From Dermatophagoides farinae (taxonomy: Eukaryota; Arthropoda; Arachnida; Sarcoptiformes; Pyroglyphidae), in assembly GCF_024713945.1 (NCBI RefSeq), contig NC_134678.1:2666001-2730000 (forward strand): 64,000 nt of DNA, read 5' to 3'. Shown here one piece after another: positions 2,404 to 48,886 of the stretch. Made by a program: the position numbers and the translations under genes. Positions within the stretch are counted from its first letter, which is position 1, and each line of letters starts with the position of its first letter. The notes below the pieces were generated by a model. The model saw only the letters and a program-made list of their open reading frames with translations, was not told the DNA's origin and did not search any database.

Positions 2404-3827
2404 AGAATGTATATGTATGTGTGTGTGTATTAATAACAGAATAAATGTCTTATATGTGTCTAGTATGTGTATTCCCTATTGAGAATAATTTCTTCAAAAT
2501 AAAGCCATTTTTTTTCTTTATTTGAAACATATATAAAAAAAGAAAAGTTTATCGCATATTCAATACTTTTTTTCACGTGGCTTCCATCGGATAGATCCAT
2601 GTGTATTAGTGTTTTGGTCGCCATTGACATTTATTAAATTGGTTCATATAATTCCTCATCAATAGTGAATTTTGATTTCCAATTTTTTTGATTTTACGTT
2701 AGCACTTTCTTTCTTTCTTCTTTTTTTTGTTATTTTGTTTCGGTTTTAGATCGGATTAATATAGTTTTATTATTATTTGTTGCTTTTGAATCAAATTATT
2801 TGTTGTTGATGTGAACACACAACCATTAAATAGTGATTCATTCAATTGATTATCCATAATTGGTCATTAGCGATTAAATTTTATTGAATTTATTTTTTTT
2901 CACATCTTTTTCAATGAATGAAATTGTAAAAGTTGTAAATCTTTTGTAAGACGACGATAAATTGAACAAAGAAAAAAATAACGGTGCTGTTGTTTGCTGA
3001 TAAAATGGAGCCATTATCTTCAAATTCCTAAGAAAAAGAAAAATCGTAAATACAATATAACCAGATAGTACAATATAAGAGTCTTTTTCACAAAAGATAA
3101 ACTGACATGAAAAACGTCTTTATCCTCAATTAATTTTCAAGAAAAAATTTCATTACTTTTCACTATTTTCACTTTCAAGTCTTATTATGTCGCCATTCCT
3201 TTTTTGGTTTTTTTCAATTTTCTTTTTTAGTTGAAAAAAATCTGGTTTACAACGACCTTGTTTTCATCGAAAGTGTGAATCCGTGTATGTGTGTGTGTGT
3301 GTGTATTTTCATAATATATTTTTGTTGTCGTTGTTTTCATCGTTGGATCAGCAGGGCATTAGCTTTATAGGAAACCTAAATTTTGAAATTTGAAAAAAAT
3401 CGAAATGAAAAGCAACGCGAAGAAGAGTTGATTCCAATTTTATTAGTTTGATCCACGGTCGTTAATGATGATTGAAAATCTCATCTCTTTTTCACTGGGT
3501 TTTTGCCTAGCCGCCTATATCTCTCTTTTTCCCGATTCAAGTTAAAAAATACCGTTCATTTTATATATATGGCCCATTAATCAAACGATTAAGTATTGAA
3601 TGAAAAAAAAGTGAAAATCTATGGCCCAGGAAAAATTTCAAAAAAAAACTTTGTTATCCATTTGATTAAAAAAAAAATTTATATATCCTGTGATTTCTGG
3701 TTACTCGTTTTTTTCTGATTATGTCCTCTCATTTGAGGTCATCATCATTTTGAATTCTTTTATTCCATTTCAATTTTCCCATTTGTTATATCATTAAAAC
3801 TAATTTATATGATCATTGTATATACAG

Positions 3828-6800: not shown

Positions 6801-9800
6801 TTTCAATTTTTTTTAACATTATTGAAATTAATAATTATTTTTATCCTTATTAACAGAATCCGTATCCATTGCAAATGAACGAATTGTTAAATATGATGAT
6901 GATGACGATAATCACAAGTTGTCAGATGGAAATGATTTAGATGGTGATGATAATACAATGATGATACAGAAATCGATGCCAATTTCAATACCAAAACCAA
7001 TACAAAAAACAAATCAACAATTATTTGGATTTTTTGGCGCCTATCATCAACAACAACCAATGGATTCTGATCATCATAATCATCACCATCTTTTTCATTC
7101 TCATAATCGTCATATGCAACAACAATTATCGCATCATACTAAACCAATGAATGCAAATAATATGTTTATATCATCCAATTCTGTGGAAGAATTTAATCAG
7201 GTTTGTTTTGTTCATTTCATTCATATATTAGAATGATGATTATCATTATAATTGTATCTTGTGTATAGTGTTGACACATTGTTTTAATGATTTATTTACT
7301 GACCAAATCATTTCTGAGTTTAATTCCGTTTGAGTGATGTGTTTTTGTGTTCGAGTGTTTTGCTTTCACTCTATTTTTGTTTGTTATTTCTGGGTTTGTT
7401 TGAATTATTTCCATTTAAAATTATTTGATTTCATTTCATAGAATGTATTCAAGCGTAGAGGAATTCTAGTGGATTTTTTTTTCATATTACGAAGAAGATT
7501 TTCTTTTCTTCTTTTTTTTTGGCTGCCAATTTTTATATTCGCAACTTTTTTTTCTTATTCTTTGACCAAACCATGGTCTATGATTGTAAATATAAAATAG
7601 ATATAAATATACAATTGTAACAATATGACAATCGTATTTCGTATACTCATAGATAGAAACAAATGAAGAACAAATGATTTATTATGACAATAGATAATTT
7701 TCATTCTCATTTTTCCGTTTGGCATATAGAATCTACTATCTTTCTCTGTATTATTTTTTTTTTTTGCTGTGGATATAGAACACTTGAAGAATTAGATGAA
7801 ATGAAAAATAAAAAAAAAGAGACATACATACACACACCACAAATATAAATTGAATAGGAATTCAAAAAAAAGAAGAAGATTCTAACAACAAAAAAACCAA
7901 CACCAAGAATAACCATTGGTGACCAATGGCCGCGGTTTTGTTGTTGGTCATTGTTGTTGTTGCGCGTTGTCATTATTATTATCATTGTTTTTGCGAGAAA
8001 AGAAAAAAAACTACCGATATTCTATCATTGCAGTTTTAGCATCAGTTGCAGCTGTTGTTGTTGTTGTTGTTATTGTTCACATCACATTTACAATTGAAGA
8101 TTTTCATCAATATTAATTAACTTAATTACTTTGGAGATTTGCTTTGAGGTTTTATTTTTTGTTTGTTTGTTCATTAGTTATGTCTCGCGTTCATTAATTC
8201 ATCTTTTTTATTGTTTTTTTTCAAATTATTATCATTATCATCATAAAATTGATATATTTTTTCAGACAATTTTTTGTTGTTGTTGTTGTTGTTTTTTTAA
8301 TAATTTTACACATTTTTTTATCCTATTTGACTATAGCGCCGATTCAAACAATTTGTTTGTGTGTGTGTGTACAAGGGGAAAAAATAGCTTGCTCTTCCTG
8401 GAACAGCCAAAAAAAAGAAAGAAAACTTTCATTCTTTTTTTTTGTTGCTTCAAAATTGATAGTCTACTATTATATTCGATCCATATTAATGTATATATAT
8501 CGAATATATATTGCCACCGATTGGCCTTCACTATCCATTTCAATATATCCAACCATCCATTCATCCATATATAATATATATATACGGACCAAACACTAAG
8601 ACTTTAATATCATTATATATCCATTTGCTGTCAATTTGGCCCCATTTTTCCTCTATGCTATTAAAATGTTGTCAAGATGAAATAATAATAATAATAATAA
8701 TAAAAATATATATACTAACTGTCCACATCAATCATTTTATTGATTCATTCATTTATTGTTTGTATAGAAAATTTCAGTATGAAAAAAAAACAAAAAACAA
8801 CCAGAGCATCATTAAACCTTTTTTTTCACCTTTGTTTTTGTCATGAAATCAAATCTGGCATATAACAAGATCAAGAAGATGTAAACAAAAACGAAAACCA
8901 TAACCATAAACTGAACATGGATAAATGAAAAATAGAAAGAAAAAATAAATAAATAAATTATCAGTTTTAATGATGAGTCAATTAATCATTAAGAAGGCTA
9001 AATTGTGATCAGATTGTTTTATTGTCATCAGTATCTTCATCATCATATTGGATATATGGATTTTTTTTGTTTTGTTTTTTCTTTGGTTCGCTTATCTTCT
9101 TCTTTCGTTACCATTTAATTATTTATTATTATCGTTGTTGTCAACATCAGTATTGTTATTATCAATATAAATATACAACAAAGTTTGACAAAATAATGTT
9201 TCGCATTTATTTTATTTTCGTTTTCATCACCCCTCGCCCACAAAAAAAAATAAGACCTCTTTTAGTTTTGGTATTTATGTTTCCACTTTATTATTACAAA
9301 TTTGGCCATTTTTTTTCTCATGTTCATGTTCATCAAATTGACTATTTTTGGTGATTAAATTCTTAACAAAATAGAAAACAATGAATTGTCATCTCGAATA
9401 TTACATCATCATCAAGTCTTCATATAATGAATGAATGGAAAATGGTTATGTCAATATATATCGTCTTCGTTGATGATCTTATGACCATGATAATTATGCG
9501 ATTGATATTGTAACATAAAAAAAACAAATTTTCTCTCATTCATTTCAGTATCTCTTTTATGTTAGATAGATTCTGATTATTTGTCTCAAATAATCATACA
9601 GTAGTATGACATATGAAATGAAAATGATTAAAAGCGTTTTTTTTCTTTGTAGAAAACAATTACTGTATAAATCCTTGTTTCTTTTTTTTCCATAATATGA
9701 TTATTATTGTATTCGAATATATATTGTGTAGCTAGAAAAAATGAACCACACATTATTATTAAAATTTATCATTAAATTATGAAAACGTTTCAACTTTGTC

Positions 9801-12020
9801 TTTCATATCTTTATCTCTCTCTAGAATTGATGTGATTCTTGATTCTCTTTCTTTTGATTTGCACATTAATTTCTTGGCCGCATCATAATCATCATACTTT
9901 TGGAATCGGTCAACTATGAATGACTTTGTTTGACTTGAGTATATAAATAATTCGATTGTACCCACACACAGATACCAACTATATTATATAACAGCTCCAA
10001 TCTATCTTTCATAAATTTGTAATCGAATAAGCGATAATAATAATTTTTTTTCGTGAATTAACTAACTTTTCGTTCATTCATTCATTCATTGATTAATAGT
10101 GAATGATGCCTTTATAAAATAAAGTTCATTGAGAATGAATTTATTGATTCGTTTTTATTCTGCATCCATCCATTCTATTAAAATCATTAGTTTTTTTTTT
10201 TTTTTTTTTGCTTTATTATTTGATGATTCAATTTGTTCTTATATATCGTAAATGTGATCTGTTATTTTTTTCAATTTTTTTTCTATTTGATTTCAATTCT
10301 TTAATTATGGAGTCTTGTTTTTTTTCATTATTTGTTTTGTATAATGTTGAAATATTTAGCAAGAGGCTTGGAAGTATAAGATTCAATAGTTAGCAGTTGA
10401 TGAATATGTGTTTAATCATTAATAAATAACTGGTTAACAAACTCATATATATACAATATTTACACCATTGAACATACTAATTAAATATACCCAACAGTTA
10501 CATTATACAACTAATTCAATATTTCTTTTAACAATTCCAACACTCCCCCTGTTGAAATAAATATTGAAACGTCACAAAAACATCATAACAAAACGACGGC
10601 CATAACTTGCTCATGTCGTATTGCCAAACTTGCCAAAACATATTCAAAGACATTGATTCAACCAATGAATCCTTTACCATTACAGTAATTCTCTCGTCTT
10701 TTTCATGAATATTCGGACTTCCTTTTTCTTCATATCTCTTGTTCTTTGCACAAACTAAATAACTTTTGGTACGATTTTCTAAACTTTCTTCTTCTTCTGT
10801 TTTCACATCTGATTTACCAATTCCATTTGGTTTTAATCTGTGAACGTCTGCACAAGTGCCTGATCGATCGGCAACCCTGGTGACTCTACCATTCAAATAA
10901 CTAATGGTTCTTTCGTAATCACCATCAAAAACAACCGTTTTGATCACATGCCAAAATCATCAGATGATATCATTTCCATTGACGAAGATTCAACCAATGA
11001 ATCCGCTAACACACTGTGTTACCAACGTCGTCTTCCTAAATGATTATCCACTTTTCCTGTGCCAGAAGAAACGCCAGATGAAACAATTCCATCATTTTCG
11101 TATGTATCGTCACCAAATTAGTTTCTTAAACCAACGTCTGCAAAGACATACTCTGAAATGCTCTTTAGCACTTCTCTTGATTCCAGTTTACCATCCAATC
11201 TACGAATCATGCTAAGCATCGATTCCACGTCTCCAGAACATTTCTGTGAAAGACTTCCTGTAGATTTGCTTGAGCTTTCGCTATGGAACTGAAACAATCT
11301 TTCCATCAACTACTTGACATTCTCACAGCCGGATAAACGATAAGAATTGGCCTCATCGACTGCTTGAACAACGAATGCCACTGCCAAGAACTAATCGAAT
11401 CTTTTACGACGTGCTTCCAAAGCACTCTGCTTTCCAACGTTAACATGATCACCATAGACCATAGATGAAAAATTTGTATCGACCAAAATACAAATGTTGG
11501 ACATCTCTTGCGTGGATGGACCCATAACCTGTTGAAATATTTAGCAAGAGGCTTGGAAGTATAAGATTCAATAGTTAGCAGTTGATGAAATATGTGTTTA
11601 ATCATTAATAAATAACTGGTTAACAAACTCATATATATACAATATTTACACTATTGAACATACTAATTAAATATACTCAACAGTTATATTAAACAACTAA
11701 TTCAATATTTCTTTTAACAATTCCAACATATAATAATAATGATGATGATGACAATAGTTTTTCATCATAATAGGCTATATTTGACTAATAATTTTTTTCT
11801 TTCTTTCTTTTTTTTTTGCTTGTTTCGATTTTTTGTTCTGTCTTTCATTATTTCATAGGAAATTGCCGAATTAATGGAAAAGAATCAAATTGAGTGTGAA
11901 AAAAATAATGATAATGGTGATGGTGATGCTGATGATGATGATAAAATACATCAGCCAATGTCTACAATAGTAACGAATGGTGGTAGACGTGCACCAGTAA
12001 CTGAATTGTTGATAGCTGCT

Positions 12021-12061
<41 letters not shown>

Positions 12062-12968
12062 TGATTCCTCAACATCATCATCATCATCATTGTCATCATA
12101 TCCTGTTGATTTTGGATCTAGTCCAACCGGAAGTTTATCAACTATTGCCCAAATTGATTGCTGGCAAGAATGGTCGCTTGATCAATCTTGTATGCCTTTT
12201 CTATGTGATGATGTAGATGATGAGCAACCACCACCATTGATTTTGGCCAACAATAATAATAATGATACTGGATCATTGTCCATTGATCATTCATTGGCAT
12301 TACCAACAAATAGATTCATATCTACAAATAAACGAGTCCTGGATGAGACCGATATTGATCAATGGTTTCCCGATAAAGAATCATCGATAAATATCATCAA
12401 GAACAATAATAATGTTCAGTTGAATTTCAATAACAATAATAAAAAAGCCGATTCATCAATTGAATCTGTCGATTTTTCAATTGAAACACAACACGGACAG
12501 CATAATACGATTACCACCAATAGTAAATGTGCAAAAATTGTTAATAATAAACAAAATTTTTCATCACAAATGTTGCCCAGTCCTAAAATGATATCATCGG
12601 ATATTGTCGATAATGTATTTGAAACGAAAGAACCTAGAACGAAAAATAAGCCAAAATTATATCAGCCAACTCAATCAGATGGATGGTTTGTTTCAATATT
12701 TTAGATTCTTTTTTCCAGTATTCTAATTATTTTTTTTTCTCTTTTTCTTTATGAATACGAAAATAAATATCCCACAAATAGGGGTTCAACAATTGCTGAA
12801 AATTTATTCATTGAACTTAGACAACAGCAGCATTCCCAACATTATCATGATTCCAATATGAAACAATTCAAATTGAAACCAAGTTTTCAATCAGCTTTCT
12901 TACCGGTTTCTGAGACAACTGCTTCATTTGTAACCACTAATCGACGAAGAATGCAAACTTCAAACTGA
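3828..12968 (+). CDS. Asn/Asp-rich low-complexity protein, five exons, 5' end missing
   Basis: Proposed exons are 3828-4037, 4292-5942, 6857-7200, 11859-12685 and 12782-12968. They join in phase 0, 1, 0 and 2 with GT donors (GTTAGT, GTATGT, GTTTGT, GTTTGT) and AG acceptors, and give at least 1072 residues ending in TGA at 12966. The protein is unrecognised. It is built from Asn, Asp, Gln, His and Ser tracts (Asp run near 4474-4500, Gln run near 4800-4832, Ala-Asp run near 12018-12057), with short less biased islands. The last ~60 residues (from 12782) are the least repetitive and may hold the only folded or conserved part. No enzyme motif or signal peptide is visible in the five exons. The first exon given starts directly after a stop codon plus AG, so an upstream initiating exon is required. 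The acceptor at 4291 has a weak pyrimidine tract and is the least certain junction. An optional in-frame exon at 7442-7585 is listed separately. Confidence 0.7.
4067..4092. repeat. (TTG)n tract in the first placed intron
   Basis: Eight to nine TTG units lie within the intron 4038-4291. They continue the exon's open frame as a leucine run, which is why the frame appears to read through the donor. Confidence 0.8.
7442..7585 (+). CDS. Candidate cassette exon encoding a hydrophobic segment
   Basis: A good acceptor (TTTCATTTCATAG) ends at 7441 and a GTAAAT donor follows 7585. The 144-nt interval is open and phase 0 at both ends, so it can be inserted between the exons ending at 7200 and starting at 11859 without shifting frame. 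It would encode 48 residues: an arginine-rich stretch (RRR) followed by about 20 mostly Phe, Leu and Ile residues resembling a membrane helix. If the donor is not used, the frame stops at 7598, giving an alternative C-terminus. The T-runs inside resemble intronic DNA, so this may be fortuitous. Confidence 0.25.
7586..10339. other. Intron sequence left of the LTR element
   Basis: Part of the 4658-nt intron 7201-11858. It contains A/T homopolymers, TTG, ATT and TCAT units (for example GTTGTT near 8049-8072) and no open frame that I would call coding. Confidence 0.6.
10345..10542 (-). repeat. Left LTR (3' LTR of the minus-strand element)
   Basis: This 198-bp direct repeat of 11530-11728 has TG...CA termini. 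The differences from the partner are three C/T changes, one T/A change and one missing A in an A-run. Confidence 0.92.
10528..10947 (-). pseudogene. Copia pol-like relic (possible GAG-pre-integrase region)
   Basis: A 139-codon open frame whose listed start is not an assured start. Near its N-terminus the order VVFDGDY..I.YLNGRV..VADRSG...HRLKPN resembles the GAG-pre-integrase segment of copia polyproteins, where a short beta-strand with a conserved LNG precedes a hydrophobic-tyrosine-arginine-leucine motif. The C-terminal half is unrecognised and runs into the LTR. The protease, the integrase core and the reverse transcriptase are absent. The assignment rests on pattern recognition only. Confidence 0.4.
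10543..10552 (-). other. Polypurine tract of the LTR element
   Basis: On the minus strand ACAGGGGGAG directly precedes the TGTTGG start of the 3' LTR. This is the usual position and composition for plus-strand priming in copia-type elements. Confidence 0.75.
11118..11413 (-). pseudogene. Copia gag-like relic
   Basis: A minus-strand frame broken by a stop at about 11311 reads ...AVDEANSYRLSG.. and then LMERLFQFHSESS...DVESMLSMIRRLDGKL..REVLKSI. The spacing of L..RLF...S, a run of polar residues, an IRRL helix and a V.KSI ending resembles the helical gag domain of copia elements (the segment before the zinc knuckle). No CCHC knuckle is present. It ends at a stop near 11118. Upstream, a short ATG frame begins at 11504 and stops near 11391. 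Confidence 0.4.
11517..11529 (-). other. Primer-binding site complementary to the anticodon arm of initiator tRNA-Met
   Basis: Immediately inside the 5' LTR the minus strand reads GGTTATGGGTCCA. The plus strand TGGACCCATAACC matches the anticodon stem-loop of metazoan initiator tRNA-Met (GGGCCCATAACC) with one difference. Drosophila copia and relatives prime from this internal half-tRNA site. Confidence 0.8.
11530..11728 (-). repeat. Right LTR (5' LTR of the minus-strand element)
   Basis: This 199-bp direct repeat of 10345-10542 contains a TATATATA stretch in its middle that could serve as the element's promoter. It is followed by the right copy of the TATAA target duplication. Confidence 0.92.
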
Positions 12969-48215: not shown

Positions 48216-48500
48216 TCTGTTGTAACGTTGTTAAAAGAAGAAAAATTTATGTCAATTTTAAAATTTGATAATAAAACGGCTATCTCTATTGTTACTACCG
48301 GTAATATGAAGCGTACAAGATCGATAAATATTAAAGCAAAAAAATTATTGGAAATCATTCGTGAAAGCGACTTTGACATTGAATAATTTGATACAAATAA
48401 TCAATATGCAGATATATTTACAAAGCCGCTTTGTGAAAGAAAAATTAACTTGTTTTGTAAATTGATGTTCAACGTAACTCCAAAATATAACGAGTTATGA
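48216..48500 (+). pseudogene. Ty1/copia RNase H C-terminal fragment
   Basis: Plus-strand frame from just after a TGA (48213-48215) to the TGA at 48498. It contains the copia end-of-pol signature: FDNKTAISIV, an R-T-R-S-I-N-I block, IIRESDFDIE, and ADIFTKPL (48408-48431) followed by ERKINLFCKL. In intact copia polyproteins this is DNQ.AI, KR.KHIDI..HF.RE and QLADIFTKPL. An in-frame TAA at 48384 interrupts it, and the upstream RNase H core (the D.DWAG region) and reverse transcriptase are not recognisable. A dead fragment. Confidence 0.85.
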
Positions 48501-48520
48501 GTAAAGCAACAAGATTTAAG
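48489..48520. repeat. Left copy of a 32-bp diverged direct repeat
   Basis: Matches 49032-49063 at 29 of 32 positions. Similarity fades out leftwards to an AACTC at 48476 and 49019. The left copy overlaps the last codons of the copia fragment. Confidence 0.7.
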
Positions 48521-48675
48521 ATACGAATAAATAATAAATATATGTTGAATTTATTATTTATTTTAGTTCGATTATAGAACGTTGACGTGTACTTTTAATT
48601 GCTTAGACATCAGCACCACCGTTTCACAACAATTATATATTATTATTAAAGTTTTTTTTAGTGTGAAAATTATTT

Positions 48676-48886
48676 GCATTTGTTGGAATTGTTGAAACTA
48701 ATATTGAATTATTATTTAATTAGTTAATGTTACTATTGTGTGTAATGAATTAGCTCTATCAATAGTGGCAGTATTGTATATAAATTAAGCATGTAAACCA
48801 TCATTAGAAGCCATACTATTGAATATTATATACCTATTGAATCAATACTTCCAATACTCTTGCTAATTTCTATTTCTAACAGTATT
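48676..48886 (+). mobile_element. Solo LTR of the same copia-like family
   Basis: The LTR (48681-48881, 201 bp) begins TGTTGGAATTGTT and ends TTTCTAACA. It shares with the LTRs at 10345-10542 and 11530-11728 (opposite strand) its first 13 bases, AATATTGAATTA, TATTGTATATA, CTATTGAATC, ATACTTCCAA and CTCTTGCTAA, in the same order and at similar length. Flanks GCATT (48676-48680) and GTATT (48882-48886) form a 5-bp duplication with one change. There is no second LTR or adjoining interior, as expected after recombination between the LTRs. It is nested within older retroelement debris and is clearly more diverged than the 10-kb copy. Confidence 0.8.

Follow-up and report, generated by a model that had tools for sequence, protein, structure and literature searches.

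A TRIM-like miniature copia element of Dermatophagoides farinae and a sister copy that carries gag sequence of a family with an open gag-pol frame

The window, as we call the whole 64,000-nucleotide stretch of D. farinae DNA that was analysed (contig NC_134678.1, positions 2,666,001 to 2,730,000), carries on its minus strand an LTR element of 1384 bp (Table 1). Both LTRs have TG...CA ends, the only differences between them are 4 substitutions and one indel of a single base, and TATAA is duplicated perfectly on either side. Since two near-identical repeats of ~199 bp with exact ends are combined with a target duplication, chance is excluded and the structure is real. A first-pass annotation had described LTRs of 198 and 199 bp, TG...CA ends, the TATAA duplication, a primer site, a polypurine tract (PPT) and 987 nt of interior; this anatomy proved exact at the base level, and the count of differences between the LTRs was reproduced. 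The minus-strand orientation was absent from that annotation. Most of the unit was found again at other sites of the genome in a whole-element search. An open frame of 281 aa (11859-12704) follows an acceptor-like TTTCATAG↓G, and near 7200 a frame of the putative host gene is followed by a donor-like CAG↓GTTTGT. Three frames of this gene were tested against Pfam and gave no match. As judged from these signals, it is plausible that the element lies inside an intron of the putative host gene.

Table 1. Features of the LTR element in the window (positions are those of the window)
Feature	Position	Strand	Remark
Target-site duplication TATAA, one side	10340..10344	.	sequence
LTR element between the duplications, 1384 bp	10345..11728	-	
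3' LTR, 198 bp, U3 haplotype A,G,G,G	10345..10542	-	haplotype common to both L009 LTRs
Polypurine tract GGGGGAG (CTCCCCC on the plus strand)	10543..10549	-	adjoins the 3' LTR; similar tracts in families A and B
Short interior, 987 bp, without intact gag or pol frame	10543..11529	-	
Second, diverged copy of the Pol_BBD segment (B residues 320-345)	10639..10713	-	direct repeat; first copy at ~10971-11011
Remnant like B polyprotein residues 355-391 (between Pol_BBD and gag_pre-integrs)	10831..10941	-	weak, 22-32% identity across copies
Decayed N-terminal part of copia gag (B residues 2-139)	11151..11528	-	two frames with stops
Primer binding site GGTTATGGGTCC	11518..11529	-	contains the ATG of the gag remnant; one G-U pair with the anticodon loop of initiator tRNA-Met
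5' LTR, 199 bp, U3 haplotype T,A,A,A	11530..11728	-	haplotype common to L010 and L013
Target-site duplication TATAA, other side	11729..11733	.	sequence

The primer binding site (PBS) begins GGTTATGGG and not TGG, and a site complementary to a tRNA 3' end was therefore rejected for this element. By its complementarity it is a site for internal priming of the copia type, predicted to pair with the anticodon loop of initiator tRNA-Met. A genome search with a long initiator-tRNA pattern gave no match, and a shorter pattern matched four places. One of them (L031, near 1485; C8:1069961) is an initiator tRNA-Met gene with an apparent intron just 3' of the anticodon, in which the PBS-pairing stretch CCCATAACC would form only once the intron is spliced out; the splice sites are our own reading, and ARAGORN calls no tRNA in L031, L032 or L033. 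The latter two are truncated look-alikes of the initiator tRNA gene. The fourth place, L034, is a tRNA-Met that has the same anticodon loop but no intron, so that the primer need not derive from a spliced tRNA. Insertion targeted to tRNA genes was also considered and was rejected, as ARAGORN found no tRNA in 17 loci; the program also missed the intron-bearing gene.

The longest open stretches of the interior are 142 and 114 aa, the shorter of which extends into the 5' LTR. The interior was compared with an autonomous copia family, family B (L029), which has a 1282-codon open frame, LTRs of 155 and 154 bp that are 99.4% identical, and Pfam matches in the order gag, pre-integrase, rve and RVT_2 (integrase core 471-567, RVT_2 815-1050). 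Four DNA blocks of the window element align to B in the same order with 69-83% identity, and from the block coordinates it was computed that ~450 nt (0.45 kb) and ~2.4 kb of B are absent between them. When the peptide pieces of the window element were searched singly against B, matches were obtained to residues 2-139 (gag), 320-347 (twice) and 355-391, and none to the integrase core or the RVT_2 region of B. Weak RT/RNase-H matches of pieces from sister copies, to B residues 871-891 (L009 and L010, E 0.010) and to residues 1043-1056 of a second family, A (L012, E 0.006), were counted as chance. Family B shares its gag start, PBS and PPT context with the window element. The full copia gene order is seen in B itself, and in the window element only gag and Pol_BBD-side debris that matches B. 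On these alignments we judge the interior to be a patchwork of degenerate segments from copia gag and the pre-integrase side, nearest to family B; the doubling of the 320-347 piece suggests that simple deletion was not the only process at work. Another miniature, of the B family, was seen on the reverse strand at 601-1797 of L038 (C3:6832200-6836000); it has ~960 bp between its LTR stretches, two parts of the B interior are missing, one of ~1.25 kb and the terminal 1.6 kb, and its second LTR is shortened.

The genome searched comprised 62,435,336 bases in 22 contigs. It contains a group-2 allergen gene, located through family PF02221, whose translation agrees with Der f 2 (PDB 1ahk) at 119 of 120 residues of the matched part and scores higher against it than against Der p 2. 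The whole-element search gave at least 25 matches and the LTR search at least 23. Among the LTR matches listed, at least 14 LTRs at 81% identity or more lie in at least nine loci, an 82-bp LTR fragment at 81% (C5:2348463) being left out of the count, and 8 of the 23 have 69-78% identity. Two LTRs are present in the window, L009, L010, L012 and L013 (one of the latter an inverted fragment), and a single LTR at 81% or more in L011, L014, L015 and L016; interior sequence is found in the window and in L009 to L013. Perfect 5-bp duplications flank five independent insertions: TATAA in the window, GTATT in L009, TTTTC in L010, ATTAT in L014/L015 and ATGAA in L016. L014 and L015 were taken as one insertion because both lie in one 6.2-kb inverted segmental duplication on C6, the two arms of which are ~47 kb apart, 98.4% identical and carry the same solo LTR. 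No duplication could be read in L011, L012 and L013, which are truncated or rearranged. The 5' junction is kept in five loci, and in four of them (window, L010, L012 and L013) the shortened order is identical; within these four, readable perfect duplications are confined to the window and L010. The earlier proposal of a miniature family, and not a one-off deletion, is borne out by the nine or more loci and by the junctions shortened alike, and the dispersed copies with five independent insertions, each with its own duplication, are those of a small non-autonomous copia family.

Relative to the window copy, L012 (C5:1063702-1064762) shows 45 indel versus 15 substitution events, L011 15 versus 7, L010 14 versus 11, and L009, when the block described below is omitted, 5 versus 18. 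The controls gave 11 versus 31 (flanks within the L014/L015 duplication, taken together) and 1 versus 10 (family A versus L030). In L012, 41 of the 45 indels shorten the copy, and in L011 eight shorten and seven lengthen it. It is possible that the indel excess in L012, L011 and L010 is an assembly artefact. The gag remnant of L013 contains, at ~3239-3326, a palindromic insert of ~90 bp with CAGGCGTCGGCAACC ends and the 8-bp repeat GTCTATGG on both sides, which we take to be hAT-MITE-like. At 2984-3600 of the same locus, the 5' LTR and the inverted LTR fragment face each other with the gag remnant between them, a possible hairpin source.

Copy L009 has identical LTRs (198/198) and ~450 bp extra after the PBS relative to the window copy. 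The 453-bp block, which starts at the PBS, is gag of family A with 98.7-99.1% identity (4 mismatches to L030 and 6 to L028); as protein, 156 residues match A gag with 99% identity. On the 5' side the miniature LTR is intact to its last base and is followed by the A-gag block from the PBS, and the inner joint is a 3-nt GTT overlap. In two outgroups, L017 and family B, the PBS runs directly into the gag start as in the window copy; since the order in the window, L010, L012 and L013 is collinear with these outgroups, the short form is ancestral and the L009 block is a gain. Family A (L028) has a single 1247-codon open frame with Pfam matches to gag, zinc knuckle, integrase and RVT_2, identical LTRs (190/190; the one mismatch seen in comparison is outside the LTR) and a 5-bp duplication, ATGAT. 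L030 is an internally deleted A copy without ~1.3 kb, and its LTRs are also identical (189/189). By these features family A looks young. Its protein has 44% identity with that of B. The last 13 nt of the LTR are identical in A and in the miniature, the PBS start GGTTATGGGT is shared, and identity is 82% over 56 nt around the LTR 3' end and PBS; the A LTR as a whole is unlike the miniature LTR, and this counts against A as the helper. Among the places that match the A-gag block, none but L009 matched both halves of the chimera, and with this single chimera one encounter, not routine help, is demonstrated.

The substitutions between the window LTRs fall at four U3 sites, and each of the two sets of states recurs in other copies (Table 1); the states in the solo LTRs are A,G,A,A (L016) and A,G,A,G (L014/L015). 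The first-pass annotation had taken the 4 substitutions and 1 indel as a sign of recent activity, but the substitutions are haplotypes common to other copies. Because the LTR states of the window copy are shared with L009 on the one hand and with L010 and L013 on the other, LTR divergence is no safe clock for this copy. The firm sign of recent movement is instead the identical LTRs of L009. No mutation rate was applied and no absolute date is given. Haplotype sharing of this kind is a warning against dating by LTR divergence where a family is small and recombines.

The interior was tested for mosaicism with the window copy, L009, L010 and L011 (L012 and L013 were left out), and columns with or beside gaps were skipped. 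Of the 11 quartet sites, six (437 to 891) group the window copy with L011, four (1033 to 1283) group it with L009 and one (429) with L010; runs this few were obtained in 0.26% of 100,000 shuffles. Without sites 429 and 437, which fall within the unrelated end of L011 or next to it, five and four sites remain in two runs, an outcome of 2 of the 126 orders. At positions 455-891 the interior of L009 agrees with L010 and not with the window copy. These sites are supportive, not strong, indications of a mosaic interior. Gene conversion, intermolecular strand transfer or a parent-copy model could lie behind the LTR and interior patterns.

A genome search for RVT_2 found 45 places, 40 of them over the curated cut-off and 19 in open frames of 1,247-1,399 codons, and longer copia elements with open pol are thus present in the host genome, as had been anticipated. 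The more specific prediction, a longer relative that would combine the same LTR ends with an intact pol, held in part. What stood is that the gag start and the PBS and PPT context recur in B, and that A shares the last LTR nucleotides, the PBS start and the gag found in L009. A long autonomous element with the miniature LTR was not found when the 23 listed LTR matches were compared with the 45 RVT_2 places: the nearest pair is 7.2 kb apart, start to start, which exceeds the reach of a 4-5 kb copia. No long A- or B-like coding stretch is attached to the LTR relatives at 69-78% identity (L018-L023 were examined over ~6 kb each, a span that more distant parts could escape). L017 keeps 89 gag residues, L021 has a short RNase-H-side match ~2.3 kb from its LTR, and the other relatives of this class gave no match to the A or B protein at E 1e-3. 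L024-L026 were dropped, as only 39 bp matched beside the PPT (in L026 also 27 bp inside). An older copia remnant lies in the window at 48281-48885, where an open stretch with ADIFTKPLCERKINLF, presumably RNase-H-end-like, is followed by an LTR 69% identical to that of the miniature; it gave no match to the A and B proteins at E 1e-3. The near-zero LTR content in the published annotation of a D. farinae assembly, whose Table 2 gives only 8 LTR pieces and 370 bp (PMC11074847), stands against the 45 RVT_2 places found here. In the literature searched we found no paper on copia LTR retrotransposons in D. farinae, nothing on point for copia TRIMs in mite genomes, and none on chimeric non-autonomous elements produced by co-packaging and template switching.

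We consider it quite probable that the window element belongs to a TRIM-like non-autonomous copia family of D. farinae, derived from a B-like ancestor and moved via the particles of autonomous copia elements. This reading takes in the anatomy, the several insertions with their own duplications, the shared short interior, the mosaic sequence and the chimera L009, for which we infer template switching between co-packaged RNAs. A B-like ancestral copia would have lost most of gag-pol by several internal deletions or template switches, and would have retained the cis parts used by reverse transcriptase and integrase, namely the LTRs, the half-tRNA-iMet PBS and the PPT. The miniature RNA would then enter the particles of an autonomous copia and be reverse transcribed, and its integration would create the 5-bp duplication. 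The joints of L009 and the youth of this copy are observed; the route to them may have been that minus-strand synthesis on the miniature RNA jumped at GTT to an A RNA within gag and continued to the A PBS, and that plus-strand transfer at the shared PBS completed the miniature LTR. Such a route requires the miniature and A RNAs in one particle. Among the sequence evidence, L009 speaks most strongly for recent movement in trans, and the helper is probably A or a close kin.

Several findings count against the TRIM-like family reading: copies are few, only four of the nine listed loci have two LTRs, L011-L013 are truncated or decayed, and B, though closer in gag, is only 69-83% identical in four short blocks. 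It is nevertheless very improbable that the short copies all started as full-length elements and decayed where they stood, by independent internal deletions after insertion. Single deleted copies do exist, L038 in the B family and L030 in the A family, and L010, L011 and L012 have extra private indels, but the interior order and the joints are common to copies at different sites. Moreover, the window copy and L010 are both short and have different target duplications, so that the short form itself moved.

Two other accounts of L009 were weighed. A new copy inherits its U3 from the 3' LTR of its parent during reverse transcription, and the window element could be the master copy of the L009 3' end, its 3' LTR having mutated in place and been copied to both L009 LTRs; the LTR clock would then be valid. 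The four U3 states agree with this, and the solo LTRs L016 and L014/L015 resemble steps towards A,G,G,G. We hold this account to be unlikely: further changes and a distinct U5 end in the solo LTRs with A,G states point to an older subfamily, and the L009 interior at 455-891 tracks L010 and not the window copy, so that recombination would be needed under a master-copy model too. Similarly doubtful is an insertion of the A-gag block into L009 at the DNA level, by gene conversion or break repair after integration, which would be silent on co-packaging. Such an event would fit the joint overlap of only 3 nt and the filler patches, as after break repair, in other copies; however, the block starts precisely at the PBS, the point of plus-strand transfer, next to a miniature LTR complete to the last base, and the L009 LTRs are identical, so that the copy is young. 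With modest confidence, we favor the reading of L009 as a miniature that would have been inside its helper's particle, with a template jump just before the PBS to an A RNA that has a different LTR and an open gag-pol frame. If this is true, the helper of an animal TRIM-like family would be named from sequence alone, and gag-less miniatures could regain gag sequence via inter-family template switching. TRIM helpers are hard to name, and by tying the miniature to a young 1247-codon family L009 makes the helper question testable.

A 5-bp target duplication and TG...CA ends are marks of copia elements, and the window element has both. Under a broad definition, as worded in PMC4558846, TRIMs are shorter than 4 kb. 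The window element has two LTRs, PBS and PPT within 1384 bp; it has little coding capacity, its gag remnant being broken by stops and frame shifts and two of its pieces giving no hit when tested against Pfam; and the short form was inserted several times, the 5' junction being shared by the window, L010, L012 and L013. The assignment as TRIM-like made in the first-pass annotation is in line with this. Because the miniature lacks proteins and because of the chimera L009, it would have moved in trans, by the proteins of another element. The alternative label, TR-GAG-like, fails for the window copy. TR-GAGs are non-autonomous LTR elements of plants with an intact gag open frame; the window element is likewise non-autonomous and has gag sequence, but its gag is not intact, and only L009 has a partial, chimeric gag frame of 290 aa, which is below the Pfam cut-offs.

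In contrast to the autonomous Drosophila copia and yeast Ty5, the window element encodes no intact protein. It resembles Drosophila copia in a PBS complementary to the anticodon loop of initiator tRNA-Met, a half-tRNA (PMC5371799), and Ty5 in initiator-Met half-tRNA or anticodon-loop priming (work cited in PMC5371799). Animal TRIMs have been described as PbTRIM in a harvester ant (PMC3532108), ta-TRIM in tapeworms (PMC4558846) and biv-TRIM in bivalves (PMC6934838), and the annotation of a predatory mite gives TRIM at 0.01%. The mite miniature shares with the three the short LTRs and the short non-coding interior, and with PbTRIM and ta-TRIM also a PBS and inferred movement in trans, PbTRIM having a PPT as well (PMC3532108, PMC4558846). 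Duplications are 4 or 5 bp in ta-TRIM (PMC4558846) and 5 bp in the miniature. Unlike these animal TRIMs as presented in the cited accounts, the miniature keeps recognisable copia gag/pol debris and an internal half-tRNA-iMet PBS, and in its sister copy L009 the family is physically joined to a candidate helper whose gag-pol frame is open. For ta-TRIM, 'lennie' was put forward as helper on the strength of ends, PBS and duplication length in common, by that account without an intact copy, and the same 2015 paper states that no TRIM helper had been proposed earlier in any species (PMC4558846). In Arabidopsis, mosaic progeny and recombinant LTRs of Onsen are ascribed to recombination of two co-packaged RNAs in reverse transcription (PMC5668417). 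That recombination, as reported there, is within one family, whereas L009 combines a non-autonomous element with another family; a natural chimera of a miniature with another family that has an open gag-pol frame is what the mite adds to these known systems.
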